DNA of 64,000 bases from a virus: positions 1 to 64,000 of the IMG/VR virus record IMGVR_UViG_3300032360_000003, one strand, 5' to 3'. Made by a program: the position numbers and the translations under genes. Position 1 is the stretch's first letter. Every line of letters begins with the position of its first letter. The notes beneath the pieces were generated by a model, which saw nothing but the letters and a program-made list of their open reading frames with translations, was not told where the DNA came from and did not search any database. This document shows, in pieces, positions 37,425 through 57,930 of this stretch.

Positions 37425-39197
37425 ATGTTAAATTTCAGACAATATTTAAAAGTTATTAATGGTGAGTGGTTGAAGGAGTGGGATGAGATGGCTATTAGTT
37501 ATGGTTTGACTGAATTTATGAATGAAGGTGTTTCGATACCAGATCAGATAAAAGTTCTTCAGAAAGATATGTTCCCTAAAATTACTACAATACCAGCCTT
37601 AAAGGATTATTTGCATAAGGCTGGAGATATATTGGGTATTGAATTCAATAAGGATATGTTGCAATCAAACCCAAAAAGAATAGCTATGCCGGCCGAATGG
37701 ACAACTGATGATTTGGCGGTGAGTGCCGAAAAGTTTAGAGATTTTTTAAATAAAGTTTTGCCAGTTAAAACAAAAATAGTTGATCCTAATGATAGTGTTG
37801 ATGGATTAGAAAATGAGAGTACGGCATTTATGGGATTTGTTATAGATTTTGATGCTAAAAATGAATATCCAACTTCAAAATCTATGAAATATCTTATGCA
37901 ACTTGCAGGAAATCAAAAGCGTTCTGCAGGAACAGCGTATCAAGAATCTGGTTTTCTCTTTGCTTTAGCAGCAAGTTTTAAATATAAAGATGATGATATT
38001 TTCAATAAGACTTATTGGAAATCTGATGACTGTAGAGGAAAAATACTAGTTGATGGTAAAAAATATAGTGAGGATCAAGTTGAAAAAATATTCAATTTTT
38101 CTGTAGGTGTTGATTGGAAGAAATCAATAAGTAATGCAGCTGAAGCACTTAATGAACAATTAGGAAAAGCTCCTAAAAAATATTATAAAGATAGTGCTAA
38201 GTTTTTTATGAACAAACTTGCTAAAAAACTTTATGAAGATGACGAAACGATGTCAACGCCCTGGAATAATGATAAATGGAATCCTGCAGATGTTTGGTTT
38301 TCGTATGATGATGGTGTTGAGGAAAAAGTGAAACAATATGAGTCATTAGTTGATTTAAATGGCTATCTCAAAGAAAGTGTGGAAAATTCTACTGGTATTA
38401 TTGGATTGTCATTAAAGAAATTTGAAAAAGGTGGCAATGTAGAAGTTATAGATATTGGAAAAAAACTAAAGACAGTAGAAAGCTTTGAGATAGTTTTGGG
38501 AGCATTATTCACTCAAGGCATAAATCAAAACTTGGTATTGAGTGTTCCCGGCTCAAATGAACCAGATAAGATACATAGTATAAGTTACAGACTTTTTCAA
38601 AGTGGGGCTAAAGAATTAATTCGCGGTGAAGTTGTAAAAAAAGGTACTGAAGCTTCACATGGTAAAGTATTTTTGTCTTATATTGATGATGCAGCTGGGA
38701 GTAATACAATCACTAAAATTGTGAATAAAGTTCGTGGTGATGGTAACATAGAATATGAGAAGGGTAAATATGTTCTTACAGATAAAGGTAAAAAGAGATA
38801 TAGATTAGTTAGTAGAATGTATAGAACAAATGTTAAAAGAAGTACAGTAGTTTCGAGATCTGTTAGTGCACGAACTAAAGAAAAACCTACTCTTGAAAAG
38901 GAATATGAAGTTTTTGATTCGTCAAAGTTCGTTGAAGGTGTTGCAATTTTTGAAAAACGGATGAATGACTATATAGATTCTAAATTTTCTAGTAAAAGTA
39001 CAACTCAAGTGATAAATGAAATGAGTGTTAAGCTTAATGCAACTTTTCAAAATGTAGTTTTTGCTGGATGGTGGACTATTTTAGCTAGGAGTAAAAGAGG
39101 TAGGTTTGAAGAAGCAAATATGGTGGCCCAAAAGATGTTGTATTTTGGTTTGTCAATGGCTGATTTTTCTGCAGTACATCTTAAAATAGGTGGATAG
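37425..39197 (+). CDS. Large hypothetical protein with capsid-targeting-like N-terminus
   Basis: 590 residues from ATG 37425 (GGGG upstream; a TTG at 37413 is less likely). It starts MLNFRQYL, like capsid-targeting leaders, but with no Glu at position 10; the nearest (L/I)-x-E sites are LKE at 16-18 and LTE at 31-33. DKWNPADVWFSYDDG (about 286-300) may be a catalytic or binding motif. The C-terminus is Lys-rich. Unrecognised; adjacent to another leader-bearing gene. Confidence 0.65.
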   Translation: MLNFRQYLKVINGEWLKEWDEMAISYGLTEFMNEGVSIPDQIKVLQKDMFPKITTIPALKDYLHKAGDILGIEFNKDMLQSNPKRIAMPAEWTTDDLAVSAEKFRDFLNKVLPVKTKIVDPNDSVDGLENESTAFMGFVIDFDAKNEYPTSKSMKYLMQLAGNQKRSAGTAYQESGFLFALAASFKYKDDDIFNKTYWKSDDCRGKILVDGKKYSEDQVEKIFNFSVGVDWKKSISNAAEALNEQLGKAPKKYYKDSAKFFMNKLAKKLYEDDETMSTPWNNDKWNPADVWFSYDDGVEEKVKQYESLVDLNGYLKESVENSTGIIGLSLKKFEKGGNVEVIDIGKKLKTVESFEIVLGALFTQGINQNLVLSVPGSNEPDKIHSISYRLFQSGAKELIRGEVVKKGTEASHGKVFLSYIDDAAGSNTITKIVNKVRGDGNIEYEKGKYVLTDKGKKRYRLVSRMYRTNVKRSTVVSRSVSARTKEKPTLEKEYEVFDSSKFVEGVAIFEKRMNDYIDSKFSSKSTTQVINEMSVKLNATFQNVVFAGWWTILARSKRGRFEEANMVAQKMLYFGLSMADFSAVHLKIGG

Positions 39198-40457
39198 ATG
39201 TTAACCTTTAAACAATTTCTCAAAGAAGAATCCGCACCGAAAAAGAATCTTCACTTAGAGCATATTGAAGATGAAATTTTCAACTTTGGTACATATGGTG
39301 CGAGGGAAGCAATTAGCTTCTTACAGTCTCTCAGGGATATGTTATCTGGTGAATCAGCCAGTCGAGTAAAAGTTACAGTTAAATTTGATGGAGCTCCTGC
39401 GTTATTCGTAGGTACAGATCCATCTGATGGAAAGTTTTTTGTAGGTACAAAGGGTGTTTTCAACAAAAATGCCAAGTTAGTTAAGTCTATGGATGACATC
39501 GAAAAGTTAGGCTATAAAGGTGGACTAGCCAACAAACTAAAAATAGCATTCGAGGAACTTCAAACACTTGGTATTGATGGGGTCTTACAAGGTGACATGA
39601 TGTTTACCAAAGAAGATCTTTCATCGGTAAAAGTAGATGGAAAGCAATATACTATATTTCAACCTAATACAATCGTATATGCTGTTCCGACAGGATCGGC
39701 TCTTGACGATAAAATAAAAACAGCACAGATAGGAATTGTTTTCCATACTACTTATACTGGCGATTCACTAGAAAGCATGGGTGCCACATTTGGTGCAGAT
39801 GTATCTAATTTGAAGAAAACGCCGAGAGTATGGTATTCAGACGTTAATTATGAAGATTATTCAGGCTCAGTATCGATGACCAAATCAGAAACTAATGAGA
39901 TTACTAAGGCCTTGTCGGAAGCAGGGAAGTCATTTCGTAAAGTGGTTAGTGGTGATTTGGATGCATTCTTGAAGCACCAAAATAGTTTACCTTCCAGTGT
40001 AATTGGGGCGTCTATCAAAACCTATAACAATTCTAAAATTCGAGCTGGTGAAAAAGTAACCAATACAAGATCGCATGCAAGAGCCTATCCAGATTATATT
40101 GAAAAATATTATGAAACTAAGATTTTACCGAAAGTGAAAAGTGATGCTGGTAAGGATAAAAAGAACAAAGAAAAAGAAGATTTTGTAAAGAAAGTAAAAG
40201 GTTGGATGTCTGTTGTTGAGGCATCATTAGAATTGCATAATCATCTGGTGGATGCAAAAATGATGATTATAAATAAATTAGATAAGGGTTTTAAAAAGTT
40301 TCCTAATACGTTTGTAAGAACAGATAGTGGCTACAAAGTAGTTAATGATGAGGGATATGTTGCAATTGATACTATCAAGGGTGATGCAGTGAAGCTTGTT
40401 GACCGTTTAGAATTTTCATATAACAATTTCAATGGTATTAAAAATTGGGATAAATAG
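39198..40457 (+). CDS. Ligase-like nucleotidyltransferase with capsid-targeting leader
   Basis: 419 residues. The leader MLTFKQFLKE fits the T4 capsid-targeting pattern with LKE cleavage by gp21. VKFDGAPAL (61-69) matches motif I K-x-D-G of DNA/RNA ligases and capping enzymes, with Lys62 as candidate nucleotide acceptor; FVGTKG follows and LQGDMMF (130-136) could be motif III. A packaged, co-injected ligase-like enzyme is inferred. The rest, including a Lys-rich region near 310-330, is unassigned. It might instead be a divergent nucleotidyltransferase with another substrate. Confidence 0.6.
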   Translation: MLTFKQFLKEESAPKKNLHLEHIEDEIFNFGTYGAREAISFLQSLRDMLSGESASRVKVTVKFDGAPALFVGTDPSDGKFFVGTKGVFNKNAKLVKSMDDIEKLGYKGGLANKLKIAFEELQTLGIDGVLQGDMMFTKEDLSSVKVDGKQYTIFQPNTIVYAVPTGSALDDKIKTAQIGIVFHTTYTGDSLESMGATFGADVSNLKKTPRVWYSDVNYEDYSGSVSMTKSETNEITKALSEAGKSFRKVVSGDLDAFLKHQNSLPSSVIGASIKTYNNSKIRAGEKVTNTRSHARAYPDYIEKYYETKILPKVKSDAGKDKKNKEKEDFVKKVKGWMSVVEASLELHNHLVDAKMMIINKLDKGFKKFPNTFVRTDSGYKVVNDEGYVAIDTIKGDAVKLVDRLEFSYNNFNGIKNWDK

Positions 40458-40466
40458 GAGACTTAA

Positions 40467-40715
40467 ATGAAGACTTTTAATGAATTATACGGAGATAGTC
40501 AATTTAGATCTAGTCGTGGAATAAGAGAGCCAGCATTACAATATACTGAGCCAGATGAATTATCACAAGTATTGAATTTTGCATTGGATGAATTAAAGAT
40601 TGCTCTTGATAATGCAAGGAATCCAGAGCGTTATGCAGAAAAATTTTCAAGAAGTGTGCCTGGGTTGGTTGATAATATTGAAAGAATTACCAAATCGTTG
40701 GAAAAAATGAGATGA
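40467..40715 (+). CDS. Small hypothetical protein with leader-like start
   Basis: 82 residues, helical. It starts MKTFNELYGD, similar to the capsid-targeting leaders of neighbours but lacking (L/I)-x-E at the right place. Four-base overlap with the next gene. Confidence 0.55.
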   Translation: MKTFNELYGDSQFRSSRGIREPALQYTEPDELSQVLNFALDELKIALDNARNPERYAEKFSRSVPGLVDNIERITKSLEKMR

Positions 40716-41002
40716 AAAAGTATTCGGAATTAGTCAATGAACTAACTGAAAAATTTACCAATAAAGAATATGTAATAGACCAACTTTCAAATTCTATGGA
40801 GAATTATGATGAAACGAGTTTTGCTATGCATATGAAAAGGGAAACTGGAATTGATCAAAGTGTGTTTCGTGCAATCTACAAGTCTTGGTCAAAACTTTCT
40901 GGTCAGGTTAAAAATCAAAATGCATATGGTTGGGATAAGTGGTTGGATCAGTTTAGCAGGCTGTTACCATTTGGATGGGCTGGTGCAGACGGGCTCAAAT
41001 AG
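40712..41002 (+). CDS. Small hypothetical protein with leader-like start
   Basis: 96 residues starting MKKYSELVNELTE, where LTE (11-13) is a possible gp21 site. The C-terminal AIYKSWSKLSGQ...NAYGWDKWLDQF is partly repeated just downstream as a separate remnant. Function unknown. Confidence 0.55.
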   Translation: MKKYSELVNELTEKFTNKEYVIDQLSNSMENYDETSFAMHMKRETGIDQSVFRAIYKSWSKLSGQVKNQNAYGWDKWLDQFSRLLPFGWAGADGLK

Positions 41003-41078
41003 GTGCAAGGCAATCTACAACGTAGATGCATATGGTTGGGAACAATGGCTCAAAACCTATTCTGGTATAGGAAAATAA
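41003..41078 (+). pseudogene. Remnant duplicate of the preceding gene's C-terminus
   Basis: In the frame ending at 41078 the sequence reads CKAIYNVDAYGWEQWLKTYSG, resembling RAIYKSW...NAYGWDKWLDQFS of the upstream gene. There is no start codon or ribosome site of its own, so it looks like a decayed partial duplication. Confidence 0.4.
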
Positions 41079-41213
41079 ATGCGTTTTATTGATTATGTAC
41101 TTTTGCGAACTAGATTAGGTTTGTGGTTTTTTAAAAGTTTTTTGTGTGTTTTGTATGACGTATTTTTTATGATAGGTTTTTTAAGAACTAGAATAAAGAG
41201 GTTTTTTAGATGA
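41079..41213 (+). CDS. Small membrane protein
   Basis: 44 residues, Phe/Leu/Arg-rich (LWFFKSFLCVLYDVFFMIGFL) with basic ends. ATGA overlap with the following nucleotidyltransferase gene and GGAAAATAA upstream support translation. Confidence 0.45.
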   Translation: MRFIDYVLLRTRLGLWFFKSFLCVLYDVFFMIGFLRTRIKRFFR

Positions 41214-42232
41214 AAACTGTAGTGTTTTCTTTTGGTAGATTCAACCCGCCGACTGTAGGTCATGAAAAATTGATCAAGAAAGTTGAGAGTGTTGCCGAAC
41301 AGAATAAGGCTGATTTCTATATCTATCCTAGTTGGTCGCAAAGTCCAGATAAAGATCCTTTACCTCATGAAGTGAAATTTAAATATATGAAAAAGGCATT
41401 TCCTAAATATGTTAAGAACATCATATCCAATAAAAAGTGCAAGACAGCAATTCATATATTAACCAAATTATATGATGCTGGTTATGAAAAGGTGATGATG
41501 GTAGTTGGGTCGGATAGGATTTCAGAATTTGATAGGCTTTTGAATAAATATAATGGGAAGAAAGCAGTACATGGTTTTTATGATTTTTCTAATGGAATAG
41601 AAATCGTATCTGCTGGTGAAAGAGATCCAGATGCTCAGGGTGTAGAAGGTATGTCGGCATCCAAAATGAGAAAGGCTGTAGTAGATGGTGATCTCGATAG
41701 TTTTAAAAGTGGAGTACCAAATATGTCAGATTCAGATAAGGAAAAGTTGTACAACGATGTGCGAAAATGGATGAATGTCAAAGAACAAGTCCAAGAAAGA
41801 ACGCTGACATCTGACGAAAATAAAAGGTTAGAAAAATATGTATTGAAGTTAAAAAAGAAAACAGCAGAATTTAAAAAGAATTATGGCGATAAATGGAAAG
41901 AAGTAATGTATGCAATCGCTACCAAATTAGCCAAAGGGGAAAGTATGAAAACCGAAAAAAGAACTTTCAAATCTTTCAAAGAATTTGCACAAAGTTTAGA
42001 TATAGTAGAAGACACAGCAAATTTTGATGTAATTGATGATTCAAATACATTGAAGCAAGCTAAAAAGATGGTCAAACAAGTCAAAGACTCTGGCGGTATT
42101 GTATGGGTCGATTTAACGTCTGATAAACCAAACGTAAATCAATCATCAACAAAAGAAGAATTTGAGTCTGATGCGGGGGGTGATGGTGCAGTAGACAAGG
42201 GTGAAGTATTCATAGTTTATAAAAATTTGTAA
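41210..42232 (+). CDS. HIGH-type nucleotidyltransferase (NMN adenylyltransferase-like)
   Basis: 340 residues. The N-terminal domain has FGRFNPPTVGHEKL (8-21, the (H/T)-x-G-H motif), VVGSDRISEF (98-107) and GMSASKMR (147-154, ISSTxxR-like), as in cytidylyl- and NMN adenylyl-transferases. The C-terminal about 140 residues are an unrelated Lys-rich extension. An internal in-frame ATG at 41945 with AAGGGGA upstream could give a separate 95-residue product. It may act in NAD synthesis or salvage. Confidence 0.85.
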   Translation: MKTVVFSFGRFNPPTVGHEKLIKKVESVAEQNKADFYIYPSWSQSPDKDPLPHEVKFKYMKKAFPKYVKNIISNKKCKTAIHILTKLYDAGYEKVMMVVGSDRISEFDRLLNKYNGKKAVHGFYDFSNGIEIVSAGERDPDAQGVEGMSASKMRKAVVDGDLDSFKSGVPNMSDSDKEKLYNDVRKWMNVKEQVQERTLTSDENKRLEKYVLKLKKKTAEFKKNYGDKWKEVMYAIATKLAKGESMKTEKRTFKSFKEFAQSLDIVEDTANFDVIDDSNTLKQAKKMVKQVKDSGGIVWVDLTSDKPNVNQSSTKEEFESDAGGDGAVDKGEVFIVYKNL

Positions 42233-42290
42233 ATGTACAGTAACCTAAGGCGTAGGTGCAGGTTGCGATTCAATAGAAAATGGAGTGATT

Positions 42291-42890
42291 ATGGTTATCG
42301 GATTAAGTGGAAAGATAAGGTCTGGAAAGTCCAGAGTGGCAAAAATCTTCAAAGAGGCATTAGAAGAAAATGGAAAGACGTGCGAGATAAAGAGTTTTGC
42401 GAGTCCAATATATGAAATAGTTTCTAAATTATATAGAAGCAATAAAGAAGAAATACAAAGGGATAAAAGAGACAACATTCCAATATACATTCATACTAGG
42501 AAGTCTAATAGCGGATTGATTTTATCCAATTATCGTGAAATTCTTCAAACAATTGGTACTACAGCTAGAGATTGTGGCGATGAGAATGTTTGGGTAAATT
42601 CCCTTTTTGGTTGTGATAATGAAAAGATTATGGGTGAATTCACTTGGGCTACAGATTATTGGATTATTGATGATGTAAGATTTCCAAATGAAGCACAAAG
42701 GATTCTTGATTGCAATGGTAAACTGATACGAATAAATCGACCAGATGCCGAGGACAATAAACACGTTATAGAAAATTCTTTGAATGATTGGGATAAATGG
42801 GATTTAGTTATTGAAAATAATCATAAATCAAAGAAAAAGAGAAACAAGGAATTAACAAAAATAGTCGAGGACTTTTTAAAAGGAGAATAA
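42291..42890 (+). CDS. Deoxynucleoside monophosphate kinase-like (T4 gp1 family)
   Basis: 199 residues from ATG 42291 (TGGAG at 5 bases). P-loop GKIRSGKS (7-14), then WIIDDVRFPNEA (about 122-133) and LIRINRP, as in the T4 gp1 dNMP kinase family that phosphorylates dGMP, dTMP and hydroxymethyl-dCMP. It supplies dNTP precursors alongside the ribonucleotide reductase encoded nearby. The substrate range here is unknown. Confidence 0.75.
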   Translation: MVIGLSGKIRSGKSRVAKIFKEALEENGKTCEIKSFASPIYEIVSKLYRSNKEEIQRDKRDNIPIYIHTRKSNSGLILSNYREILQTIGTTARDCGDENVWVNSLFGCDNEKIMGEFTWATDYWIIDDVRFPNEAQRILDCNGKLIRINRPDAEDNKHVIENSLNDWDKWDLVIENNHKSKKKRNKELTKIVEDFLKGE

Positions 42891-42892
42891 AA

Positions 42893-43174
42893 ATGGATGA
42901 TAACCCATTTGTACAAGCACATGATCCCGATCTGGTGGATAAAATACGAAAGATTCTATCAGGGCCACCAAAAGAGGATGAAAAAAAAGAGCAAAAAGAA
43001 AAGGTTGATGGACGTACTAAGGTATATAAAACTACATCAACCAGATTAACAGATGGAAAGCGTAGATCAAAAGTCAATACATCATTTGATGGTCGAACCA
43101 AAGCATATAGGGAAACCGTAAAGCGTATTGAAGCACGCCGAACCAAAAAAGCTGAGAAATCAGAAGAAGACTAA
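42893..43174 (+). CDS. Small charged protein with internal repeat
   Basis: 93 residues, about half charged. DGRTKVYKTT and DGRTKAYRET are two copies of one short motif about 28 residues apart. No family recognised; possibly nucleic-acid or virion associated. Confidence 0.55.
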   Translation: MDDNPFVQAHDPDLVDKIRKILSGPPKEDEKKEQKEKVDGRTKVYKTTSTRLTDGKRRSKVNTSFDGRTKAYRETVKRIEARRTKKAEKSEED

Positions 43175-43196
43175 ATAATACAAAAGGAGAACAATC

Positions 43197-44156
43197 ATGA
43201 GTTTATGGGGAAATGTGGATAAATCAACACTGACAGGTACAGTAACAGTTGCCGGCAACAGTGCTACGGTCACTGGATCTGGTACATCGTTTACTGACGA
43301 AATTGATGTTGGTGATTTACTTATGGTTACGACAGACACCACTGCTAATAGAGTAAAGTCTATTACTAGTGATACTGTATTAACTTTGACTGCTAATTAT
43401 GCAGGGGCCGATGCTGGTGCTAGTAAAGCAGTCCATAAAAGAGAAACACCAAGAAATCTATCTATTTCAGATTCTAATGCTATTTTTGGAGTTACTACTG
43501 CTGAAACGACAGGTGGTGAAGGTATTATTGTTTCAATGTCTGTAGATAGTGGCGGAACTGGATATGCATCTGCACCAACCGTTACTGTCGCATCTGGTGC
43601 TGGAGCTGGTACTGCGGTTGTTAGTGCAACAACAGGAAAAGTTACATCAATTACTATAACAAATCAGGGAGCAAGTTATGATCCTGCACCGGCACTTGCG
43701 ATTACAGCACCTGTAGCAAAAACTTTTAATGGTGCTAGTGCAGTTGATCCAGCAACGGATCAAATTACGGTTACAGGACATAAAATGGAAACTGGTGATG
43801 AAGTAACTTTGGCTAGTAGTAATACACTTCCTACAGGACTATCTGCAGGAACTTATTATGTGATTTTTGTGGATGCTAATAATATAAAATTAGCATCAAA
43901 TGTTGACAATGCTAATAGTGGTATTGCAGTTGACATTACAGTTGACGGTTCTGGAAATAGTACTCTTACTGGTGTTACAGCAACAGCTGTGGCGACGTTG
44001 GGTTCTGGCTCACCTGCAACTGTTCAACATCCAGGCTGGGTCAAGAGAACTGTTGGAACAGGCGGTCGTGCTGGTCGGATTCAATATGAAACATTGGTAG
44101 CAATGAGTTCAATTACAGGTGAAGCAGAAGGGTCTATAGACGAATTTCCCGAATAA
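43197..44156 (+). CDS. Virion structural protein, fibre/neck-like
   Basis: 319 residues, Gly/Ser/Thr/Ala-rich beta protein. TVTVAGNSATVTGSGTSFTDEIDVGD, VSMSVDSGGTGYASAPTV and VTITNQGASYDPAP-type segments are short beta modules found in marine phage tail proteins. The C-terminus HPGWVKRTVGTGGRAGRIQYE is a shared ending of T4-like marine structural proteins. An AAAGGAG ribosome site precedes it. Confidence 0.75.
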   Translation: MSLWGNVDKSTLTGTVTVAGNSATVTGSGTSFTDEIDVGDLLMVTTDTTANRVKSITSDTVLTLTANYAGADAGASKAVHKRETPRNLSISDSNAIFGVTTAETTGGEGIIVSMSVDSGGTGYASAPTVTVASGAGAGTAVVSATTGKVTSITITNQGASYDPAPALAITAPVAKTFNGASAVDPATDQITVTGHKMETGDEVTLASSNTLPTGLSAGTYYVIFVDANNIKLASNVDNANSGIAVDITVDGSGNSTLTGVTATAVATLGSGSPATVQHPGWVKRTVGTGGRAGRIQYETLVAMSSITGEAEGSIDEFPE

Positions 44157-44174
44157 TTAAATTAAAGGTTTGTT

Positions 44175-44567
44175 ATGTTTGATGTGATTAATGATGACAA
44201 TTTTTTCTTGTACGCAGCGAAGAATTATGATAATCCTTCCTGTACAGGACTAGATGACTTTTATGAAGATCTTAATCACATTAAATATATCAAGCGTTTA
44301 TTCAATAGGTATGAAAACAAGGGAGAATTGAAGGACGGTCTAATAACCAATCACCTTCTCACTCTCTATAATATATTTGGAAATAGTACAACTACCATTT
44401 TGTTTTTTAAGTTGGAAGAATCCTATTGGTCACTATTAAAAACGTTTTTAGTAGGTTTGAATAGATTGCCTGACGTAGTTCATGGATTGGAGCAGGGTGA
44501 AATTAATACTGTAGACATACCGTTAAATCAAGAAGTTATAAAAAGGTTAAGAATACGATGGGAATAA
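44175..44567 (+). CDS. Conserved T4-like hypothetical protein
   Basis: 130 residues with YDNPSCTGLDDFYEDLNHIKYIKRL and NHLLTLYNIFGN, a pattern I associate with a conserved gene of unknown function in marine T4-like phages. Helical and soluble. Overlaps the next gene by 10 bases. Confidence 0.65.
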   Translation: MFDVINDDNFFLYAAKNYDNPSCTGLDDFYEDLNHIKYIKRLFNRYENKGELKDGLITNHLLTLYNIFGNSTTTILFFKLEESYWSLLKTFLVGLNRLPDVVHGLEQGEINTVDIPLNQEVIKRLRIRWE

Positions 44568-45076
44568 TATCAACTGGAGTAGATTATTATTTGGTGTTCA
44601 GATTTATCAAGGCTCTAGTCCAACCTTTCAACAAGACAAAAGCTTATAAGCTTGGAATTATTGATGATGAAGGTAATATATTGAAAAAGAAGCGAGAGTT
44701 GAGTGGTACTGCTGAAAAGAAAGCTTATGGTTATTTTGAGAGGATGGTATGGAATCTGAAAAAGTTGATAATGAAAGTACCTATAATTGGTAAGAGTCTT
44801 GGGAGCTTTGCAGCTGCATCTTATATGTTCTTCAAAGAAGAATATGATGACAGTGAGATAAATGTCCTAAGAGAAAAAACCTTCTTAAAATTTGTATGGG
44901 AAGATTTAGAAACCAGTGCAAAAAACTATTTAAGTGAAGTAGCACCATCAACAAGTATCAGTAGTGGTGGCATACCTAGCTTAACTGATCCTTCAATAGT
45001 ATCAAAAGCAGCACAGAAAAAGTTAATTCGGCGTAACAAAAAGAAAAAGAAAAAGAAATCGGGTCAGGTAAATTAA
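44558..45076 (+). CDS. Conserved T4-like hypothetical protein, basic tail
   Basis: 172 residues. AYKLGIIDDEGNILKK and YFERMVWNLKKLIMKVPIIGK are typical of the gene paired with the previous one in marine relatives. It ends in a Lys/Arg run (RRNKKKKKKK), suggesting DNA contact or a head-internal role. The pairing is conserved from memory only. Confidence 0.65.
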   Translation: MGIISTGVDYYLVFRFIKALVQPFNKTKAYKLGIIDDEGNILKKKRELSGTAEKKAYGYFERMVWNLKKLIMKVPIIGKSLGSFAAASYMFFKEEYDDSEINVLREKTFLKFVWEDLETSAKNYLSEVAPSTSISSGGIPSLTDPSIVSKAAQKKLIRRNKKKKKKKSGQVN

Positions 45077-45325: not shown

Positions 45326-45328
45326 GCC

Positions 45329-45357
45329 TTGACAAACTAGTATTTTTATGGTATACT
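45329..45357 (+). promoter_or_regulatory. Sigma-70 promoter for primase
   Basis: TTGACA (45329-45334), 17-base spacer, TATACT (45352-45357), extended TGG. The start point would coincide with the primase ATG at 45364, so the message is leaderless. Confidence 0.88.
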
Positions 45358-46390: not shown

Positions 46391-47101
46391 ATGAAAGGTT
46401 TTATGGATTTTTTTGATACTGAGAATATATCTCATATGGATGCATATGGTATAGATAGTGATAATGTGAATTTAATCACAGAGGCAGGTTTGGCTAGATT
46501 ATTACAAAGGGTTGATACAGAAAAGAATGATTTTGTAATGATAACGGCATATAGAGCTGAATATAGTAAAGCAGAAAATATAAAAAGAAATAGAAACATG
46601 AGAAGTGAATGGAATAAGGTCAAATTAGGCCCTTATCAATTGGTCGGTCACTGGCGTGAATGTAGTATAGAAGGAACACCATATGATGCATGTCCAGAGG
46701 ATAAGTTAGTTGATGCAATTGAAAGGTCTTATTTAGTGGTAAGAACAGATGAAGTTTCCTCGAAGGATTTTTGGGAACTTGCAAATAAACTTGGAAAAGA
46801 ACACAAGCAGGATGCTATTGTCGTAAGGGTTGAAGAATATACAGGAGATGAGACTTGGGTGATAGGTGGAGCTTATAATTCAGACAGCCCTACTGTTTTT
46901 GAAAGGTATAAAAAGGTATCAATAGGACAAATAGCACAAGGTTGGTCGCAACACGTTAAGAAGATGGATGTTCCATTTACTTTTGAAGGTGTTGAAATTC
47001 CAGGCAGTAATAGTGGTAGAATGATATTTAGCAGAATAGGTTTGTCATATCCCGTAGGGAAATGGGATGATGCACGAAATTGGGAAGATATTTGTGGATA
47101 A
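46391..47101 (+). CDS. Hypothetical protein, DUF3293-like
   Basis: 236 residues. FVMITAYRAEYSKAENIKRNRNM and PYQLVGHWREC recall the ITA-Y...N...N...L / G-x-W-x-E pattern of DUF3293-type proteins; SYLVVRTDEVSSKDFWELA continues it. Function unknown. AAGGAG ribosome sites before and after place it between primase and reductase in one unit. Confidence 0.55.
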   Translation: MKGFMDFFDTENISHMDAYGIDSDNVNLITEAGLARLLQRVDTEKNDFVMITAYRAEYSKAENIKRNRNMRSEWNKVKLGPYQLVGHWRECSIEGTPYDACPEDKLVDAIERSYLVVRTDEVSSKDFWELANKLGKEHKQDAIVVRVEEYTGDETWVIGGAYNSDSPTVFERYKKVSIGQIAQGWSQHVKKMDVPFTFEGVEIPGSNSGRMIFSRIGLSYPVGKWDDARNWEDICG

Positions 47102-50699: not shown

Positions 50700-50794
50700 A
50701 AAAACTGAAAATAGCATCACCTTTGATTGGTGGTAAATCTGGAATACTATTAAGAGAATATATTAGACAGACCACTGGAAAGGGGGGAAATTGA
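50657..50794 (+). CDS. Small basic hypothetical protein
   Basis: 45 residues overlapping the previous gene by 43 bases, Lys/Arg-rich (MQKRLTRRDK). A short frame with a TTGA overlap with the next start. Coding status is uncertain. Confidence 0.35.
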   Translation: MQKRLTRRDKCEAIKKLKIASPLIGGKSGILLREYIRQTTGKGGN

Positions 50795-50988
50795 ACATTG
50801 AGGAAATTACGAAAAAGTTGGGAATTTTAGAGATACAATTGAAACAAGTTTCGAGTTATTATATAGCACCAGATAAAGAACACACTTCTACTATGCCAGG
50901 CATTGATAATACAGCTATGGTAAATTGGAAGAAAAAACGAATGGAAGAAATAGGAAAAGAGATAGAAAATTTAAAAATGGAAAAATAA
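50791..50988 (+). CDS. Small hypothetical helical protein
   Basis: 65 residues starting with TTG, justified by GGGGGGAAA directly upstream and the TTGA overlap with the previous stop. Amphipathic helices at both ends. Unknown. Confidence 0.5.
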   Translation: MNIEEITKKLGILEIQLKQVSSYYIAPDKEHTSTMPGIDNTAMVNWKKKRMEEIGKEIENLKMEK

Positions 50989-51509
50989 TGAAATATTTTG
51001 TGATGTGTTGGGTGTTGTTGTGTGGTTGTGATGAATATACTATGACTGTAACTCAGATCATAAAAGATCCCGGCCAAGCAAAGGGGAAGTACCGTGTGTT
51101 GCAAGGTGATTATTTTGTTGATGTCCAAATATTGAATACAGATACAACTAGATTACGAGGCACAGTCCGTATATTGAAAGGTGCATATCTACGGATAGAA
51201 AATGGTTCTGTCGTTTATGGTGAATTGGAAACTAAGGGGAAATTAATTATCGAAAAGGGTGCATTTTGTATCGGTGTTGGTACAATGGAAACGCCTATTC
51301 GATTTACATCTGATCAAGTGAAAAGGCCACATTTAGGTGATTGGGAAGGTATTGTTTTGAATGGTCTTACTCGATTAGAGAATGTAGTGATTGAATATGC
51401 AAAAATAGGCGTAACTGTGAATAATGAGAGTGTACGGATATATAATGGATTATTTCGGAGAAATGGCATGGAATGCAAAGGCTTAGAAGAAACTGTATGG
51501 AGAAGATAA
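50988..51509 (+). CDS. Predicted lipoprotein with beta-helix-like repeats
   Basis: 173 residues from ATG 50988 (TAATG). Signal KYFVMCWVLLCGC with Cys at the end as lipidation site. The body (VRILKGAYLRIENGSVVYGELETKGKL and later VVIEYAKIGVTV) has short beta-turn repeats like right-handed beta-helix or bactofilin-type proteins. Surface or periplasmic role inferred. Confidence 0.55.
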   Translation: MKYFVMCWVLLCGCDEYTMTVTQIIKDPGQAKGKYRVLQGDYFVDVQILNTDTTRLRGTVRILKGAYLRIENGSVVYGELETKGKLIIEKGAFCIGVGTMETPIRFTSDQVKRPHLGDWEGIVLNGLTRLENVVIEYAKIGVTVNNESVRIYNGLFRRNGMECKGLEETVWRR

Positions 51510-51700
51510 TGCCTATTGATTATAATCAACTTTTTTTAGATAGTGGTACTGGAGTCAAAAAAAGTTGTAATGTTATTGTTGAAAAATTAGATAAATTAAT
51601 TTCCATGACGAAGAAGAAAGGTCAGAAAAAAAGAATGGAAAAATTAAGGAAGAAGGTTAAAAAAATCTATAAATTCGCCAAGAAGAATAGATATTTATAA
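51509..51700 (+). CDS. Small Lys-rich hypothetical protein
   Basis: 63 residues from ATG 51509 (TAATG overlap, GGAGAAGAT upstream). C-terminal half is nearly all Lys with spaced hydrophobics, suggesting nucleic-acid binding. Unknown. Confidence 0.5.
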   Translation: MPIDYNQLFLDSGTGVKKSCNVIVEKLDKLISMTKKKGQKKRMEKLRKKVKKIYKFAKKNRYL

Positions 51701-51703
51701 AAT

Positions 51704-51711
51704 TATAAATA
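51704..51711 (+). promoter_or_regulatory. Late promoter-like TATAAATA box
   Basis: Exact TATAAATA in a 122-base intergenic stretch, about 112 bases before the next clear ATG (51823). Confidence 0.4.
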
Positions 51712-51822
51712 CATATGTTATATGCAGTACTACTTTATTATATTTATTGGAAGATTTTTTTATCGGAAATCAGGTTACTGATAATACGGTTACTACAGTC
51801 GTTTGATTAGGGGGGCGATCTA

Positions 51823-52050
51823 ATGTCTAGTTTAGAAGGTGTATGCATAGAAGAAAAGTTATCCGTTTTGAATGAAGCAAAAACTAAGAAAAAAAAGGTT
51901 ACTGTATTGGCTTTAGGTCAATATAATGTATGTGAAGTCAAGAGAATATGGTGGGATGATTTTGATGATATAATTGAATTATTCATACCAGAAACAAAAA
52001 GGAAATGGAAAGTTGGTACTAATTCAATAACTCAGGTGAGAATGCTTTAA
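51823..52050 (+). CDS. Small hypothetical protein
   Basis: 75 residues, GGGGGGCG ribosome site. KKVTVLALGQYNVCEVKRIWWDD and later IELFIPETKRKWKVG suggest a small beta fold. No family. Confidence 0.55.
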   Translation: MSSLEGVCIEEKLSVLNEAKTKKKKVTVLALGQYNVCEVKRIWWDDFDDIIELFIPETKRKWKVGTNSITQVRML

Positions 52051-52066
52051 AAGTCTATATGTGATT

Positions 52067-52074
52067 TATAAATA
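52067..52074 (+). promoter_or_regulatory. Late promoter-like TATAAATA box
   Basis: TATAAATA lies 18 bases before the ATG of a small membrane protein and the protease gene that follows. Spacing is the same as for the second gp18 box. Confidence 0.45.
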
Positions 52075-52092
52075 ATATTGAGGAATCATATT

Positions 52093-52227
52093 ATGAATAC
52101 GTTATATAAATATTTCAAAATACGTTATTTTTTACTATTCATTTGGTATAAGTATTGGTTGCCATTGAGTATTACTTTATTTTTACATTGGATTGTGATA
52201 AGAATTATATGGGAGATTATAAAATGA
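52093..52227 (+). CDS. Small membrane protein
   Basis: 44 residues with aromatic transmembrane segment(s) (FLLFIWYKYWLPLSITLFLHWIVI split by a Lys). TGAGGAATC upstream serves as ribosome site, and the stop overlaps the protease start (ATGA), favouring real translation. Confidence 0.5.
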   Translation: MNTLYKYFKIRYFLLFIWYKYWLPLSITLFLHWIVIRIIWEIIK

Positions 52228-53084
52228 ACCAAGAACAATTGCACGAAAAGGTTTTGTATCCAGTTACTAGAGTACGAACTGCAAAGGCTGGTGGTAGTGG
52301 AGTAGTCGTATATAGTAAAGAAGATCCTGATAAGCCGGGTGAATTTATTAATGTCGTATTAACCTGTGAGCATGTTATTTCAGATGCAGTTACAGTTAAA
52401 TCCGAATGGGATTCCTTATTAAAAAGAGAAATCAAAAAGGACGTATCTGAAGAAGTTACAGTAGAAGTTTTTGATTATATAGGTTCAAAAATAGCTTCGG
52501 CAAACAGTACCCAAGCTGAAATTATTGCATATGACAAAAATCATGATCTCGCCGCAGTTAGACTTACCAATATCAAGCCCTTAGATTTTGTTTCTAATAT
52601 ATATCCAGAAAGTGGTATTGAAGATCTAAAACTATTTGATGAGGTTTGGACAAGTGGTTGTAGTTTATTGCATGATCCATTTGCAAATAAGGGTGAACTA
52701 ACCTACTTACGAGAGATGATAGATCAAAAAGCATATTTGATGTACAATGCACCGTCAATATTTGGTAATTCTGGCGGAGGTTTATTTCATGGTAATAATG
52801 GAGAATTGCTAGGTTTGTGTTCTCGTATTACTAACATACAATTGGGATTTGGTATTGATGTTATGACATGGATGGGATTTAGTACGCATCCTGATAGGAT
52901 ATATGAATTTATAGAACATCAGGAACTGCAGTTCATCTATGATGATGATGATAATTACTATGATGCTATGGAAAGAAGAAATAAGAAGCAAAAACAATCA
53001 TTGCGTCACTTGTTCTTAGAGGATAAGGGTGCAGACAAAGTACCAGAACCAGAAGAAACTAAAGGCGGAAAACGACACGATTAA
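52224..53084 (+). CDS. Trypsin-like serine protease
   Basis: 286 residues from ATG 52224. Catalytic triad: VVLTCEHVIS (His50), AYDKNHDLAAVRL (Asp108), FGNSGGGLFHG (Ser183). No signal peptide, so it acts inside the cell or in the virion. It precedes the run of genes with capsid-targeting leaders. C-terminal charged tail. Chymotrypsin/HtrA-like proteases without a PDZ domain are uncommon in T4-like phages. Confidence 0.85.
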   Translation: MNQEQLHEKVLYPVTRVRTAKAGGSGVVVYSKEDPDKPGEFINVVLTCEHVISDAVTVKSEWDSLLKREIKKDVSEEVTVEVFDYIGSKIASANSTQAEIIAYDKNHDLAAVRLTNIKPLDFVSNIYPESGIEDLKLFDEVWTSGCSLLHDPFANKGELTYLREMIDQKAYLMYNAPSIFGNSGGGLFHGNNGELLGLCSRITNIQLGFGIDVMTWMGFSTHPDRIYEFIEHQELQFIYDDDDNYYDAMERRNKKQKQSLRHLFLEDKGADKVPEPEETKGGKRHD

Positions 53085-53094
53085 GGAAGAATCA

Positions 53095-54165
53095 ATGCAA
53101 ACTTTCGAGGAATTTTTAATAGAGAAGCAGATCCTTTTCAATCAAGGAAAGAAGTACGGTCAGATTGTATTCATGGCAGGTGGTGCGGGTTCTGGTAAAG
53201 GGTTCGCACAGAAAAATTTCATGGAAATTTCCAAGTTCAAGGTTCGCGATGTAGATGAGTGGAAAAGGGCCTTTATGGAAATTTCTAGAATACAAAAAGA
53301 TTCTACTGATTGGGAAGGGAACGTTAATCCGAAATATTTAGACAAAAAGGGTCGATTATTGGGTGATCTTGACTTGAAAAATCCAGACCATGTATTTGCA
53401 CTTCATATGGCAGTCAAAAAAATAGGGGTCAAGAATAAATCTTTAACTCTTTTGTTGAAGGATTTGGATGCAAGACATTTACCCAATATATTATTTGATG
53501 TAACGTTGAAGGACATGGATGATATTGCAGAAGTCTTACCAGACTTACACAAAGTTGGATATGATGCGAGAAACGTTCATGTTGTATGGGTATTAACAAA
53601 TTATCATGTTGCAGTAGAAAGAAACCAATCGCGATCGCGGGTTGTTCCTGATGACATCCTCTTAAAAACTCATGAAGGTGCTGCGAATACTATGTATCAA
53701 TTGATACGGAGTAAGGGTGTTTTAGGACTAGATGGCGGGGTTCATGTAATACTGAACAATAAGGAAAATACTATTTTCTATACAGATCCAGAAGATGCGA
53801 AAGGTACGCGTCGTGGTAGGAGAGTTGGTGATTCTGAATTGGATACTGGTCTAGGTGGAGTTTTTCTAAAGAAGCCGGCATTCCCTATAATCAAGGATTT
53901 CACCTATATTACATTGAAGCGTGAAGGACAGCCGTTCTATGATCAGGATGAAGTCAATCAACAGGTTTTGGATTGGATAAAGGACAATGTGCCAAGAACT
54001 AAGGAAACTCAACATTTTTGGGGCGGTGGTAATACCAATGAAAGTACAAAATTAAAAAAGGAAAAGGAAAAAAAAGATTACTGGTGGCTGAAAGATAGAG
54101 TTGATTATAATAAAAAGCAGGTGAATCCAAAAACCAAGTACTCTATAATAAAAAGAAAAAAATGA
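53095..54165 (+). CDS. P-loop kinase-like (zeta-toxin-like) protein with capsid-targeting leader
   Basis: 356 residues from ATG 53095 (AAGGAAG upstream). The leader MQTFEEFLIE ends in LIE, a gp21 site. Walker A FMAGGAGSGKGFAQ (27-40); a LIKE-like Asp at residue about 54 (RDVDEWK); NILFDVTLKDM; then VVWVLTNYHVAVERNQSR, a lid-like Arg segment. The pattern recalls zeta toxin/gluconate-type kinases. A packaged kinase acting on host targets is inferred. Confidence 0.65.
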   Translation: MQTFEEFLIEKQILFNQGKKYGQIVFMAGGAGSGKGFAQKNFMEISKFKVRDVDEWKRAFMEISRIQKDSTDWEGNVNPKYLDKKGRLLGDLDLKNPDHVFALHMAVKKIGVKNKSLTLLLKDLDARHLPNILFDVTLKDMDDIAEVLPDLHKVGYDARNVHVVWVLTNYHVAVERNQSRSRVVPDDILLKTHEGAANTMYQLIRSKGVLGLDGGVHVILNNKENTIFYTDPEDAKGTRRGRRVGDSELDTGLGGVFLKKPAFPIIKDFTYITLKREGQPFYDQDEVNQQVLDWIKDNVPRTKETQHFWGGGNTNESTKLKKEKEKKDYWWLKDRVDYNKKQVNPKTKYSIIKRKK

Positions 54166-55796
54166 AATCATTTAAAGTATTTCTAACCGAAGAAACTCTT
54201 AAAACTGATAAGTTTGTATTTCATATAAACAGTCACTTTCCTATAAGTACTAAAATGCTTGAACGTATACAGGGAACTGCTAATGAACCTATGTATGCCA
54301 TACATATAACAGATGCCACTGGTGCACCAAACTTACTCAGAATTCAAAATACTGCAAAACAAATCTCTGTGATGACAGATCCTAGAGATCAGTTAAATTC
54401 GTTGGCATCTGGTGGAGTTGCAACTAGAGGTGGAGTAATCATGGTATTGCGTGGTTATCCTGTGTTAACATCTGAAGCAGATCTTTGGACTAAGTTGGAT
54501 ACGCAAGGTCGTAGGTGGATTAGTTTATCGAAATTGTATTTTCAGACCAGTAGAACTAACGATCCAGAAAGCCACAGACGTAAATTGAAGCATATTATGC
54601 TTGATGCCCATAGACTGAAATTTGAGATTGTTGAGGATGTAATTGATAAGTTTGCTGATAAGGATGAGGGCGTGGAAAATCTTAGGCTTGCTTATGAAGA
54701 AGTTAATACAAATTGGGGCCAAAAGAGTTTTAAAGAGTATGGTGCAATTTCTGATTTTAAAGAGGGAGTTGTTGAGGGGGATAAAACACCATTCACTACA
54801 GAAATTTGGCAACATTTGCATTATGGCGTGGGTTCAAGAATAGGCAGAAGATATACTGCTATTCCAATATCCAAAAAGACCAAGGCTTATATTATTAGAA
54901 GCTGGTATGATGGCGTTGAAACTATTATGAAAAGAGGTGGTCTTGAAATGCTTGAGGATATGCTTGCTGATGTCGGGGAGGATTATAGATCATGGGATGA
55001 GATTTCGATGAATCAGTTTGAAGTACTGTTGATGGGTGTGACCAATGATTTTTTGGGCCAAGACATAGAAGATTTAGGACAACAGAATAGCATACCAGTG
55101 GATCATATATATGTATCTAGCAAGGGTGTACAGTTTGATGATACGATTCAATCAAGAGTTGGGGTCTATTATGCACAGATAAGACAACAAACGCCGGATG
55201 CAATACGTCTGTTAATAGAATCCAGTACTGAACCAGCATCCGTGGATAGTGGTGCTGATGCAGTGCACTTAATGGAATTTTTACAAACTGGAAAAGTTAG
55301 TAATGATAATGAGTTTACAGATATAATGTTTTCATATGCTGGCGGTATCTATAAAGTACCATTTTGGGAAGTTTCTGGTACAACTAATAATTGGGCTCCA
55401 TATGTGGATTGTCCAGTAATAGGTGATTCGTTTGATGCAGGGGATTTAGTTAATCCGTTGATGTATGATGAATTGAATGTTCAAGATGGGGATTATATCA
55501 ATTCTCATCGTTCAAATGGGTACAATCCAGCACTCGATGTATTGGTAGATGGACTTGCAGTATTTGCAGATTTGTGTGATGGTAGGTATACAAATTATGA
55601 AGAAAAGGCATGGATATGGTTTGAAAATACTGGTTCTATGAGGGATAGGACTGCAGCTGGAGTTGCTGTTGGTATTATTTTTGGGATTTTTAAATCAGAT
55701 GATGGTTGGAAAATAGCACAAAGAGCAGCTGAAACGATGCGTCTATATTATGATGACTTCCCACAAGTACCAGTACAATACTTAGAACAGGGGTAA
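54162..55796 (+). CDS. Predicted internal head protein, paralogue family member 1
   Basis: 544 residues. Leader MKSFKVFLTE, whose LTE equals the gp23 cleavage triplet. The N-terminal domain shares with two downstream proteins the motifs YAIHITDATG, GGVATRGGVIMVLRG and TQGRRWISL; later SWDEISMNQFEV matches WDEIIMTKFKI of the 56039 protein. The His...Glu arrangement is compatible with an ADP-ribosyltransferase-like fold (T4 Alt is a packaged example), but this is speculation. The C-terminal about 250 residues are unique. Confidence 0.6.
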   Translation: MKSFKVFLTEETLKTDKFVFHINSHFPISTKMLERIQGTANEPMYAIHITDATGAPNLLRIQNTAKQISVMTDPRDQLNSLASGGVATRGGVIMVLRGYPVLTSEADLWTKLDTQGRRWISLSKLYFQTSRTNDPESHRRKLKHIMLDAHRLKFEIVEDVIDKFADKDEGVENLRLAYEEVNTNWGQKSFKEYGAISDFKEGVVEGDKTPFTTEIWQHLHYGVGSRIGRRYTAIPISKKTKAYIIRSWYDGVETIMKRGGLEMLEDMLADVGEDYRSWDEISMNQFEVLLMGVTNDFLGQDIEDLGQQNSIPVDHIYVSSKGVQFDDTIQSRVGVYYAQIRQQTPDAIRLLIESSTEPASVDSGADAVHLMEFLQTGKVSNDNEFTDIMFSYAGGIYKVPFWEVSGTTNNWAPYVDCPVIGDSFDAGDLVNPLMYDELNVQDGDYINSHRSNGYNPALDVLVDGLAVFADLCDGRYTNYEEKAWIWFENTGSMRDRTAAGVAVGIIFGIFKSDDGWKIAQRAAETMRLYYDDFPQVPVQYLEQG

Positions 55797-55799
55797 CAA

Positions 55800-56042
55800 A
55801 TGAAGAACTTTAAAGAATATATAACAGAAGCAGGATTTTCCCCAAGTCAGATTAAGAAGTTAAGAGCAGAATGGGGTAAGATAGAACTTATTGATCCAAC
55901 TTCTAAAACCTATAAAAGATTGGATGATATGCTAGAAAAGATGAGCATTGAGGATTTGGAAAAGATAATTGATGCCAAGATCAAATTTGTCTCTAGTCTG
56001 GCACTTGCAAAGGTAGTCAGGAAGAAGCGTGGGGTAAAATGA
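55800..56042 (+). CDS. Small predicted internal head protein
   Basis: 80 residues. Leader MKNFKEYITE, cleavable after ITE to leave about 70 residues of basic helical protein (FSPSQIKKLRAEWGKIEL). Comparable in size and charge to T4 internal proteins IPI-IPIII. Confidence 0.6.
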   Translation: MKNFKEYITEAGFSPSQIKKLRAEWGKIELIDPTSKTYKRLDDMLEKMSIEDLEKIIDAKIKFVSSLALAKVVRKKRGVK

Positions 56043-56974
56043 AATCTTTCAAGCAATATCTAATTGAAGGTAGTGATACATCTGTCAACGAGATAATTTT
56101 TGAGAGTGATGATGCCGATGTTCTAATTCCATTATCGCAAACTGTATGGGAGAGACTTACAGGCGAGAAAAAAGACAAATATGCTGTTCATATCACAGAT
56201 TTAGAAGGGCTGGATAGTATCAAGCGTATTTCTGGTAGTAAAAAAGGTGTTCCTGCAATGTCAGATACCAGTGATAAGGTAATTAAATCTTTTGTTGATA
56301 CCAAGTATGGTGTATTGACTGAGGGTGGCGTTTGGGTTGTTTTAAAAGGAAAGCCTGTTGTTGAAATGGGTATGGATTATGGTACTTGGAGAGACACTCA
56401 GGGTAGAAGATGGCTAAATATTACGCATAAGATGGATAGATTTGGAGATTTGCAGCACAAGATGGTAACAGGATTTAGGGATTTGCGTGAGGACATCTAT
56501 ATGGAAGTCATAGTTATGCAAGATGACAATCCAGAGTTGCAGAAAAAGATGGGTTCCTTTGATCCAGAAGATCCAGACCGCTGGCGAACAGATAATGTGT
56601 ATAATTTCAATCATATTGGTGGGGTTAATAGTAGGGGTACTGGTAAGGAAAAGGCACTTGCGATAAAGATGTTTGTTGATGGTGCAGAAAAACTCGTTAA
56701 AGAAAATTTACGAGAGATACAGATAATGATTACAACGCCAAGTAGTATGAGATATCATGCGGATTGGGATGAAATAATAATGACCAAATTCAAAATTGAT
56801 AGAATTGTGATAGAGTATCGTCAATATAAGAATATGACTATGGATGTTGATCAGATGGTCAAAAAATATAGAGCAGCAGTGTTCATTGCTGGTGGAATTG
56901 GATCGGGTAATGATAAAATAATTTCTGCAATAAAGAAGCAGGCATTCGATTATGTAAGGTCTAAAAACAAATGA
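56039..56974 (+). CDS. Predicted internal head protein, paralogue family member 2
   Basis: 311 residues with leader MKSFKQYLIE (LIE). Family motifs: IPLSQTVWERL, YAVHITDLEG, GVLTEGGVWVVLKG, DTQGRRWLNI, DWDEIIMTKFKI. A downstream GGIGSGNDK is Gly-rich but not a good P-loop. ATGA overlaps with both neighbours. Confidence 0.62.
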   Translation: MKSFKQYLIEGSDTSVNEIIFESDDADVLIPLSQTVWERLTGEKKDKYAVHITDLEGLDSIKRISGSKKGVPAMSDTSDKVIKSFVDTKYGVLTEGGVWVVLKGKPVVEMGMDYGTWRDTQGRRWLNITHKMDRFGDLQHKMVTGFRDLREDIYMEVIVMQDDNPELQKKMGSFDPEDPDRWRTDNVYNFNHIGGVNSRGTGKEKALAIKMFVDGAEKLVKENLREIQIMITTPSSMRYHADWDEIIMTKFKIDRIVIEYRQYKNMTMDVDQMVKKYRAAVFIAGGIGSGNDKIISAIKKQAFDYVRSKNK

Positions 56975-57930
56975 AAAACTTTAAAGATTTTCTATTAGCA
57001 GAGAATTCTCAATCTTGGTCTGTCAAAGATCTCATATTCGGAGAGGTCGCTAGAACCTATGTTCATATACCACTATCTCTACCTATGTGGAAGCGTATAA
57101 CAGAAGTGAAGAATATGTATGGGGTACATTCAACCACTATAAATGGCATGGAAAAATTGGTTAAGTTGCAAGGCAGCTCCGCACAGATATCTACTGTTGA
57201 TTGGGCATCAAAGGACGGAATCGAAACATTGGTATCTGGTATCGCAACAGAGGGTGGGGCAGTGGCACTTATTAAGGGATTGGCTATCTTTGAAGCAGAT
57301 GAAGATATTTATAGCTATCAGGACAATCAGGGTCGGAGATGGGTCGAAATAATGAATTTTAAGGATGCATTTCCCACTATAGGTAATGAAATTGATAAGA
57401 TAAAGCTCAAAATTATCAATAGACTAGAGCCAGAGCTTTCAAAATTGTGGCAAAAGGAATATGGTAAGCCATTAACTCAAGGTTCGTTTCCAGATCTAGC
57501 AAGGTTTGGTAGTACTGCAAATAAGGCAATTAGAATGTTCTTTGATGAGATTGAAAGGTTCCTTAAAAAGACTTCTACTCAAGGTAAGATTAAAAATGCA
57601 TTCAAAATGAAAAGTGCTGAAGATCCATCTGTAACTGCTTGGAATGAGAATATCATAACCAAATTCAAGATAGAAACGATTATATTCAACAAAAAGAGAT
57701 TGACAGTCAGGTTCAAAGATGTTGATCAAGGCGGAGAATATGATGCCAGTGATGTTCTTGCGAAGTTGTTCCCAAATGATCCAGTTGCAACCGATAGAGA
57801 GCCACTCAGTCCATTTTTAGAAAAGCTCCGTAAGAAAGTTGGTGCAATAATACTGGTACCGCAAGATGATTATAAACAGCGCGTTAAGGAATTAGTAGAT
57901 ACTGCTAATATGATGAATAAAAGATTATAA
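56971..57930 (+). CDS. Predicted internal head protein, paralogue family member 3
   Basis: 319 residues with leader MKNFKDFLLAE (LAE). Family motifs: IPLSLPMWKRI, YGVHSTTING, GIATEGGAVALIKG, DNQGRRWVEI, AWNENIITKFKIETI. The late-type TATAAATA lies across its last codons, upstream of the GIY-YIG-like gene. Confidence 0.62.
   Translation: MKNFKDFLLAENSQSWSVKDLIFGEVARTYVHIPLSLPMWKRITEVKNMYGVHSTTINGMEKLVKLQGSSAQISTVDWASKDGIETLVSGIATEGGAVALIKGLAIFEADEDIYSYQDNQGRRWVEIMNFKDAFPTIGNEIDKIKLKIINRLEPELSKLWQKEYGKPLTQGSFPDLARFGSTANKAIRMFFDEIERFLKKTSTQGKIKNAFKMKSAEDPSVTAWNENIITKFKIETIIFNKKRLTVRFKDVDQGGEYDASDVLAKLFPNDPVATDREPLSPFLEKLRKKVGAIILVPQDDYKQRVKELVDTANMMNKRL

Follow-up and report, generated by a model that had tools for sequence, protein, structure and literature searches.

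A probable capsid-targeting leader of the T4 type recurs on at least six proteins, partly enzymes, of an uncultured T4-type phage

In bacteriophage T4, internal protein III (IPIII) begins with the capsid-targeting sequence MKTYQEFIAE. According to the mutagenesis as presented in PMC9026906, targeting to the prohead core depends mainly on residues 4 and 7 of this leader and its cleavage on residues 8 and 10, and the prohead protease gp21 cuts after the (L/I)-x-E triplet. A T4 review suggests that proteins of various kinds may be incorporated into the head by means of this sequence. As described in PMC5694885 and PMC9026906, the giant phages phiKZ and SPN3US contain many head-internal ejection proteins with propeptides that their prohead protease cleaves. 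Here we analyse a 64,000-nucleotide stretch of virus DNA, called the window below, which corresponds to positions 1-64000 of the 66,974-base record IMGVR_UViG_3300032360_000003 and in which six predicted proteins begin with a similar leader. A preliminary description of this DNA had proposed that the phage may load an arsenal of enzymes into its head. Our analysis indicates that the leader is very probably a capsid-targeting sequence of the IPII/IPIII type, which would load proteins into the head for later delivery with the DNA.

We scanned every ATG, GTG and TTG codon on both strands of the window for the pattern M-x-x-[FY]-x-x-[FY]-[LIVM]-x(0,2)-E. The scan returned exactly six starts, all on the plus strand and none on the minus strand: 39198 (MLTFKQFLKE), 53095 (MQTFEEFLIE), 54162 (MKSFKVFLTE), 55800 (MKNFKEYITE), 56039 (MKSFKQYLIE) and 56971 (MKNFKDFLLAE), the same six coordinates that the preliminary description had listed. 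All fit the form M-x-x-F-x-x-(F/Y)-(L/I)-x(1,2)-E. Aromatic residues occupy positions 4 and 7 in 6/6 leaders and (L/I)-x-E occupies positions 8-10 in 5/6, the LxE of 56971 being shifted so that its Glu stands at position 11. Three weaker leaders had also been listed, and they are partial matches that each fail one determinant: 37425 (MLNFRQYLKV) has F4, Y7 and L8 but no Glu10, 40467 (MKTFNELYGD) is without the second aromatic, and 40712 (MKKYSELVNE) keeps Y4, V8 and E10 but has Leu7. As a chance control, the first 30 amino acids were shuffled at 969 plus-strand start codons. The 2000 shuffles gave 0.046 leader matches per window on average and a maximum of 2, which corresponds to a Poisson P of about 1e-11 for six leaders, or 2e-7 with the three paralogues among them (54162, 56039 and 56971) counted once.

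The window leaders keep the four functional positions of T4, namely F4, F/Y7, L/I8 and E10 (E11 in 56971). This match at the very positions that mutagenesis showed to matter, as far as PMC9026906 documents them, argues for the capsid-targeting reading. The 169-kb T4 genome, scanned with the looser leader DNA pattern, acts as a positive control: it yielded three matches, each at the start of an annotated gene, namely ipII, ipIII and 61.1. MKTYQEFIAE is exact in IPII and IPIII only, the start of IPI being merely similar in the accounts of PMC9026906 and PMC9958956; the earlier statement that IPI to IPIII all begin with it therefore holds for IPII and IPIII and has to be relaxed for IPI. The third match, gp61.1, is an uncharacterised protein of 54 amino acids with a perfect leader, MKTFKEFIKE (locus L252, NC_000866 18966-19130, minus strand). 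From its leader, gp61.1 is predicted to be an internal head protein of T4 that has so far gone unrecognised.

The leader can be separated from the protein that it precedes. The bodies of 39198, 53095, 55800 and the paralogues are mutually unrelated by blastp. In an alignment of 15 homologues of the 39198 protein, a member of the DUF6267 family, F4 of the leader is nearly invariant and E10 invariant; a linker variable in length and sequence follows, and then the conserved body. Cyanophage DUF6267 orthologues (P-HM2, S-CAM9, S-SZBM1) are leaderless and begin directly at the body. The kinase family of 53095 has the (L/I)-x-E triplet ahead of the body even in members with a differing leader. These comparisons identify the leader as a detachable module, and its presence on unrelated bodies again favours capsid targeting.

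To gauge its breadth, we searched IMG/VR with a single exact DNA version of the leader and, as a control, with the same codons permuted. Over the whole collection the leader form occurs in at least 120 contigs and the permuted form in 1. Among the 131 matches listed, 120 open complete open reading frames (ORFs), 115 of at least 60 amino acids, with a median of 163 amino acids; in 126 of them a stop codon lies in frame no more than 30 codons before the leader. The bodies borne by the listed leaders form 57 clusters by blastp, between which distant kinship is possible, and Pfam assigns them to adenylate kinase, ADP-ribosyltransferase (ART-PolyVal, DUF3990), HD hydrolase, RNA ligase, GNAT, methyltransferase, 5'-nucleotidase (NT5C), cytidylyltransferase, DUF6267 and other families. 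Ser or Ala stands behind the Glu in 80/131 listed matches and in 23/57 cluster representatives, as would be expected of a protease site. We give almost no credence to an origin of the six alike N-termini from one ancestor or from AT-rich codon composition. Half of the six, 54162, 56039 and 56971, are true paralogues, but the unrelated bodies of the others speak against common descent, and the composition-preserving shuffles, together with the codon-permuted search, speak against composition.

Leader-bearing contigs are linked to heads of the T4 type. The window itself encodes on its plus strand the prohead protease gp21 (7858-8511; phrog_207, 3.5e-74), the head scaffold gp22 (8555-9793; phrog_237, 1.8e-73) and the major capsid protein gp23 (9820-11232; phrog_138, 1.8e-149). 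We propose that gp21 processes the tagged proteins and that gp22 forms the core that takes them up. The gp23 cleavage site, LLTE before Ala at residues 55-59, carries the same triplet as the leaders, as had been pointed out before. Because its gp23 is 59% identical to those of the cyanophages S-SSM4 and S-CAM22, we assign the window phage to the Kyanoviridae-like marine phages. Among the listed leader contigs of at least 58 kb, gp23 was found in 12/15 and gp21 in 11/15, compared with gp23 in 5/14 random contigs of at least 58 kb, strong in 2/14 (Fisher P 0.02 for the gp23 linkage; 0.0006 with strong matches). Typical leaders in the random contigs occur mainly in gp23-positive ones. Co-occurrence with T4-type gp23 and gp21, relative to random contigs, is what a capsid-targeting sequence would produce.

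Further support comes from purified virions of S-CREM2, S-SZBM1 and S-SCSM1, in which tagged homologues of window genes have been found by mass spectrometry, according to the published protein lists. We mapped the S-CREM2 virion protein table, as given in PMC10665884, on all 219 annotated ORFs of this phage. Where a strict leader begins at residue 1, the ORF product is a virion protein in 3/3 cases (P = 0.0027 outside the 24 structural genes): gp6, a SAM (S-adenosylmethionine) hydrolase (MKDFDSFLEE), gp14, an APH-like kinase (MKRFDAFLTE), and gp154, a cytidylyltransferase (MKNFSSFLTEA). A relaxed leader gives 5/6 (P = 2e-4 outside structural genes); this form was chosen after seeing the sequences, and the strict figure is safer. 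S-SZBM1_140, on the 30-protein virion list of PMC9146016, begins MRFRQFIIEA, and the NMNAT S-SCSM1_91, a virion protein in the list of PMC9602691, begins MKSFLQFLKEA. The T4-GC190 cytidylyltransferase is reported as a virion protein in S-SM1 (PMC3037559), and its P-HM2 member adjoins DUF6267. The window counterpart is a cytidylyltransferase/NMNAT-like protein at 41210-42232 on the plus strand, recognised by Pfam/PHROG and by homology to S-SCSM1_91 (47%, 9e-53), S-SZBM1_140 (44%, 2e-38) and S-CREM2 gp154 (32%, 2e-26). It lies in a block, reaching from gp41 to gp61/nrdA and holding X, DUF6267, the cytidylyltransferase and a head protein, that is common to the window, Syn9, P-HM2 and S-SZBM1 and partly present in HTVC008M, Melnitz and C48C1. 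The published accounts, in the parts available to us, do not link the virion enzymes of S-CREM2, S-SZBM1, S-SCSM1 and S-SM1 to a capsid-targeting leader, and the papers returned by our literature search, likewise available in part, hold no earlier report of the leader outside T4 relatives. Another protein in the S-CREM2 virion table, the Cas9-like nuclease gp12, has the leader-like stretch RFASFMAEA at residues 18-26 (locus L273, 7704-10313, minus strand).

The leader might instead be a common N-terminal helix that serves translation start, stability or docking to membrane or polymerase, its likeness to T4 being incidental. Its position, no further than about 12 residues from the start codon in proteins of many kinds, would suit such a helix. 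However, the conserved residues are precisely the four that are functional in T4, the leader marks known internal proteins in T4, it is linked with T4-type gp23, and leader ORFs are enriched in the S-CREM2 virion table, so that we hold this explanation to be very improbable.

Several observations weigh against capsid targeting in the window phage. This phage is uncultured and known from sequence alone, and the virion data are those of relatives. Cleaved N-termini of leader proteins are not reported in the published proteomics as available to us. S-SZBM1_191 and S-SZBM1_192 have perfect leaders and are absent from the 30 detected proteins listed, a shallow data set. In the case of S-CREM2 the authors caution against a possible co-purification of enzymes with caesium chloride-banded virions (PMC10665884), and such a possibility is noted by the authors of two papers. 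The window cytidylyltransferase 41210 is without an N-terminal leader, though its orthologues in Syn9, S-SZBM1, S-SCSM1 and S-CREM2 carry one and the last three are listed as virion proteins. The residues behind the six window leaders (E, K, E, A, G and N) are only partly the Ser or Ala favoured elsewhere. Finally, the T4-type late-promoter octamer TATAAATA occurs 17 times in the window (14 on the plus strand, 3 on the minus strand) against 10.3 expected, which is weak support for late expression.

With these points weighed, we infer for the window phage a course of events modelled on T4. Late in infection, the two aromatic residues, 4 and 7, would attach tagged proteins to the prohead core of gp22, so that these become enclosed in the head. 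There gp21 would cut after the Glu of (L/I)-x-E and free the mature proteins inside the capsid, where they would be retained in the DNA-filled head until released into the next host cell with the genome. The cargo would comprise at least six proteins: the DUF6267 protein, a zeta-toxin-like kinase, three paralogues that are possibly ADP-ribosyltransferase-like, and a protein of 80 amino acids. The packaging part of the proposed enzyme arsenal thus gains support; core binding, leader cleavage, injection and the host role of each enzyme are predictions, and the two ends of the chain, late expression and entry into the host, are presumed from T4. The leader could also target the prohead core while its cargo consists mainly of scaffold or assembly factors that are kept or degraded in the head. 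IPIII does have an assembly role according to PMC9026906, yet the bodies that could be identified are mostly enzymes with nucleotides, NAD (nicotinamide adenine dinucleotide), SAM, nucleic acids or proteins as their substrates, and such activities suit host take-over more than scaffolding. In T4, moreover, IPI and Alt are injected into the host. We therefore consider a cargo of scaffold factors improbable and retain delivery with the DNA.

The first of the six proteins, at 39198-40457 (plus strand, 419 amino acids; leader 39198-39227), matches DUF6267 over its full length (350 bits, Pfam cut-off 27) and phrog_455. The preliminary description had called it ligase-like. A KxDG motif is indeed present (K62-D64-G65) and invariant among the aligned DUF6267 homologues, but a profile search of PDB sequences gave no detectable match to a solved ligase. 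Our literature search found no paper on DUF6267. The protein at 53095-54165 (plus strand, 356 amino acids) was called kinase-like, in agreement with its score above the cut-off for Zeta_toxin (PF06414, 35.4 bits, cut-off 22.3), and it contains the P-loop GGAGSGKG. Its start lies inside an ORF that is open from 53029, at an internal ATG that homologues support: T4-type relatives align with the kinase from residue 1. The protein at 55800-56042 (plus strand) has 80 amino acids in all, leader included, and its body has no homologue among the fetched loci. Searches of PDB sequences with paralogue, DUF6267 and kinase queries returned no significant match.

The remaining three, at 54162-55796 (544 amino acids), 56039-56974 (311) and 56971-57930 (319), all on the plus strand, are paralogues. 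The preliminary description had treated all leader-bearing proteins as one family; the six share the tag, and kinship of the bodies is confined to these three. An iterative search found 23 members, nearly all starting with the leader. The IMG/VR search for the family used a three-sequence alignment (A1) with the leader among its search patterns; loci L093-L098 are biased towards leader-bearing members, and L014, L015, L066 and L080 (reached via DUF6267) and L125 are unbiased. Tandem arrays have up to four members (L080) and three in L094, L098 and the window. A tblastn search with 54162 and L094:10930 gave no match in the annotated phage collection. Conserved residues of the family are H-x-T, (K)SIS, GG, DxxGRRW and WDE, with H51-x-T, SIS and E245 of WDE kept in 20 relatives, a signature that tentatively recalls the H-(Y/S/T)-E type of catalytic residues in ADP-ribosyltransferases. 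AlphaFold2 models have a predicted local distance difference test score (pLDDT) of 75.6 and 85.2, with residues 1-11 or 1-13 of low confidence before a folded body; the leader of 56039 is modelled as disordered (pLDDT <50). Such an arrangement would be expected of a tag. The best Foldseek matches include the ADP-ribosyltransferases TreTu, PARP14/15 and KptA. Because none of the matches in PDB and BFVD was significant, ADP-ribosyltransferase activity of the family is a tentative suggestion, to which we give somewhat less than an even chance; Pfam/PHROG matched no paralogue to Alt or any ADP-ribosyltransferase. The C-terminal domain of 54162 (residues about 340-544) occurs only in this paralogue and has no detectable relatives among the fetched loci.

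The window has a looser seventh leader, and the last 3 kb of the record, beyond the window, contain no leader ORF. The seventh, missing from the earlier list, is a SAM-lyase-family protein at 46391-47101 (plus strand; PF23780, S-AdoMet lyase, 36.5 bits, cut-off 28, 5.6e-9) with the start MKGFMDFFDTE and a gp21-type site, LITE before Ala, at residues 29-33. It is probably a seventh cargo protein because it combines this leader-like start with the conservation of LITE-Ala and homology to the leader-bearing virion protein gp6 of S-CREM2 (8e-8). The weak-leader protein at 37425-39197 (plus strand, 590 amino acids) is, by sequence comparison, a distant homologue of S-SCSM1_90, annotated 'virion protein' (E 8e-6), and its homologue in L014 has the full leader MLKFKKYISE. 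The IMG/VR scan gave no relative of 37425; its relatives surfaced in loci fetched for DUF6267. The cytidylyltransferase 41210-42232 contains an internal leader-like stretch, KRTFKSFKEFAQSLDIVE, at residues about 245-270, which might serve as a targeting signal in an internal or C-terminal position.

Five of the six leaders lie in an operon at 52-58 kb. Two TATAAATA octamers at 52067 and 52105 (52067-52112, plus strand) precede it, and these, together with the overlapping genes, weakly suggest its late expression. Its first gene, 52224-53084, encodes a leaderless trypsin-like protease (PF13365, 4.2e-12). Downstream, a 71-nt intergenic repeat occurs in five plus-strand copies (59033-59103, 59494-59564, 59734-59804, 61544-61614 and 61882-61952); its core is hairpin-like (TTAG.CTAAACCTTTT.GGTTTTAATACGTCTAATATAGTGTA), and it is possibly a repeated terminator/promoter unit. 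Elsewhere the window encodes two iron-sulphur cluster assembly proteins (32521-33123 and 33520-33834; NifU-like fusion, Fe-S_biosyn) and a C-5 cytosine DNA methylase (19111-20475) that adjoins another putative methyltransferase, at 18126.

Cyanophage virion proteomes repeatedly contain enzymes such as NMNAT, SAM hydrolase and kinases, and the authors could not separate cargo from contamination. A targeting leader would explain how such enzymes enter heads. A long-standing question, namely which phage proteins accompany the DNA into the cell, would then become a matter of prediction from sequence in uncultured T4-like phages. The leader also suggests that an initial set of host take-over proteins acts before phage gene expression: a SAM lyase against restriction, kinases and possible ADP-ribosyltransferases. 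A bolder proposal, which we find conceivable though rather less probable than not, is that the capsid-targeting sequence is a widely used, readable delivery code on dozens of enzyme families across T4-type phages, in the sea and elsewhere, and that the cargo of this lineage consists chiefly of a new ADP-ribosyltransferase-like family that duplicates in tandem and takes the role of T4 Alt. If the leader is such a code on dozens of unrelated enzyme families, the set of injected proteins would be predictable from sequence.

Among known systems, phiKZ and SPN3US resemble the window phage in having many head-internal proteins with protease-cut propeptides; their protease specificities and propeptides differ from the T4-type leader. 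T4 Alt, a head-loaded ADP-ribosyltransferase delivered with the DNA, would be a functional parallel if the paralogues are ADP-ribosyltransferase-like, whereas these carry an IPIII-type leader, stand in three tandem copies and have no significant match to that fold. The virion enzymes of S-CREM2, S-SZBM1 and S-SCSM1 share the leader and are homologous to window 41210 and 46391, and together with S-SM1 they share the neighbourhood between gp41 and gp61/nrdA; they are tagged there, whereas in the window 41210 is leaderless and 46391 has a looser leader. T4 IPII and IPIII agree with the window proteins in leader length, F/Y at 4 and 7, L/I at 8 and E at 10, in the presence of gp21, gp22 and gp23 in the same genome, and in a common leader before unrelated bodies; no homology of the tagged window proteins to T4 internal proteins was detected. 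In T4 the leader is exact in two proteins, both of them small and basic, whereas the window phage has at least six tagged proteins, mostly of 300-550 amino acids and partly enzymes. The mechanism is known from T4; the breadth of the leader and the partly enzymatic set of cargo are new.

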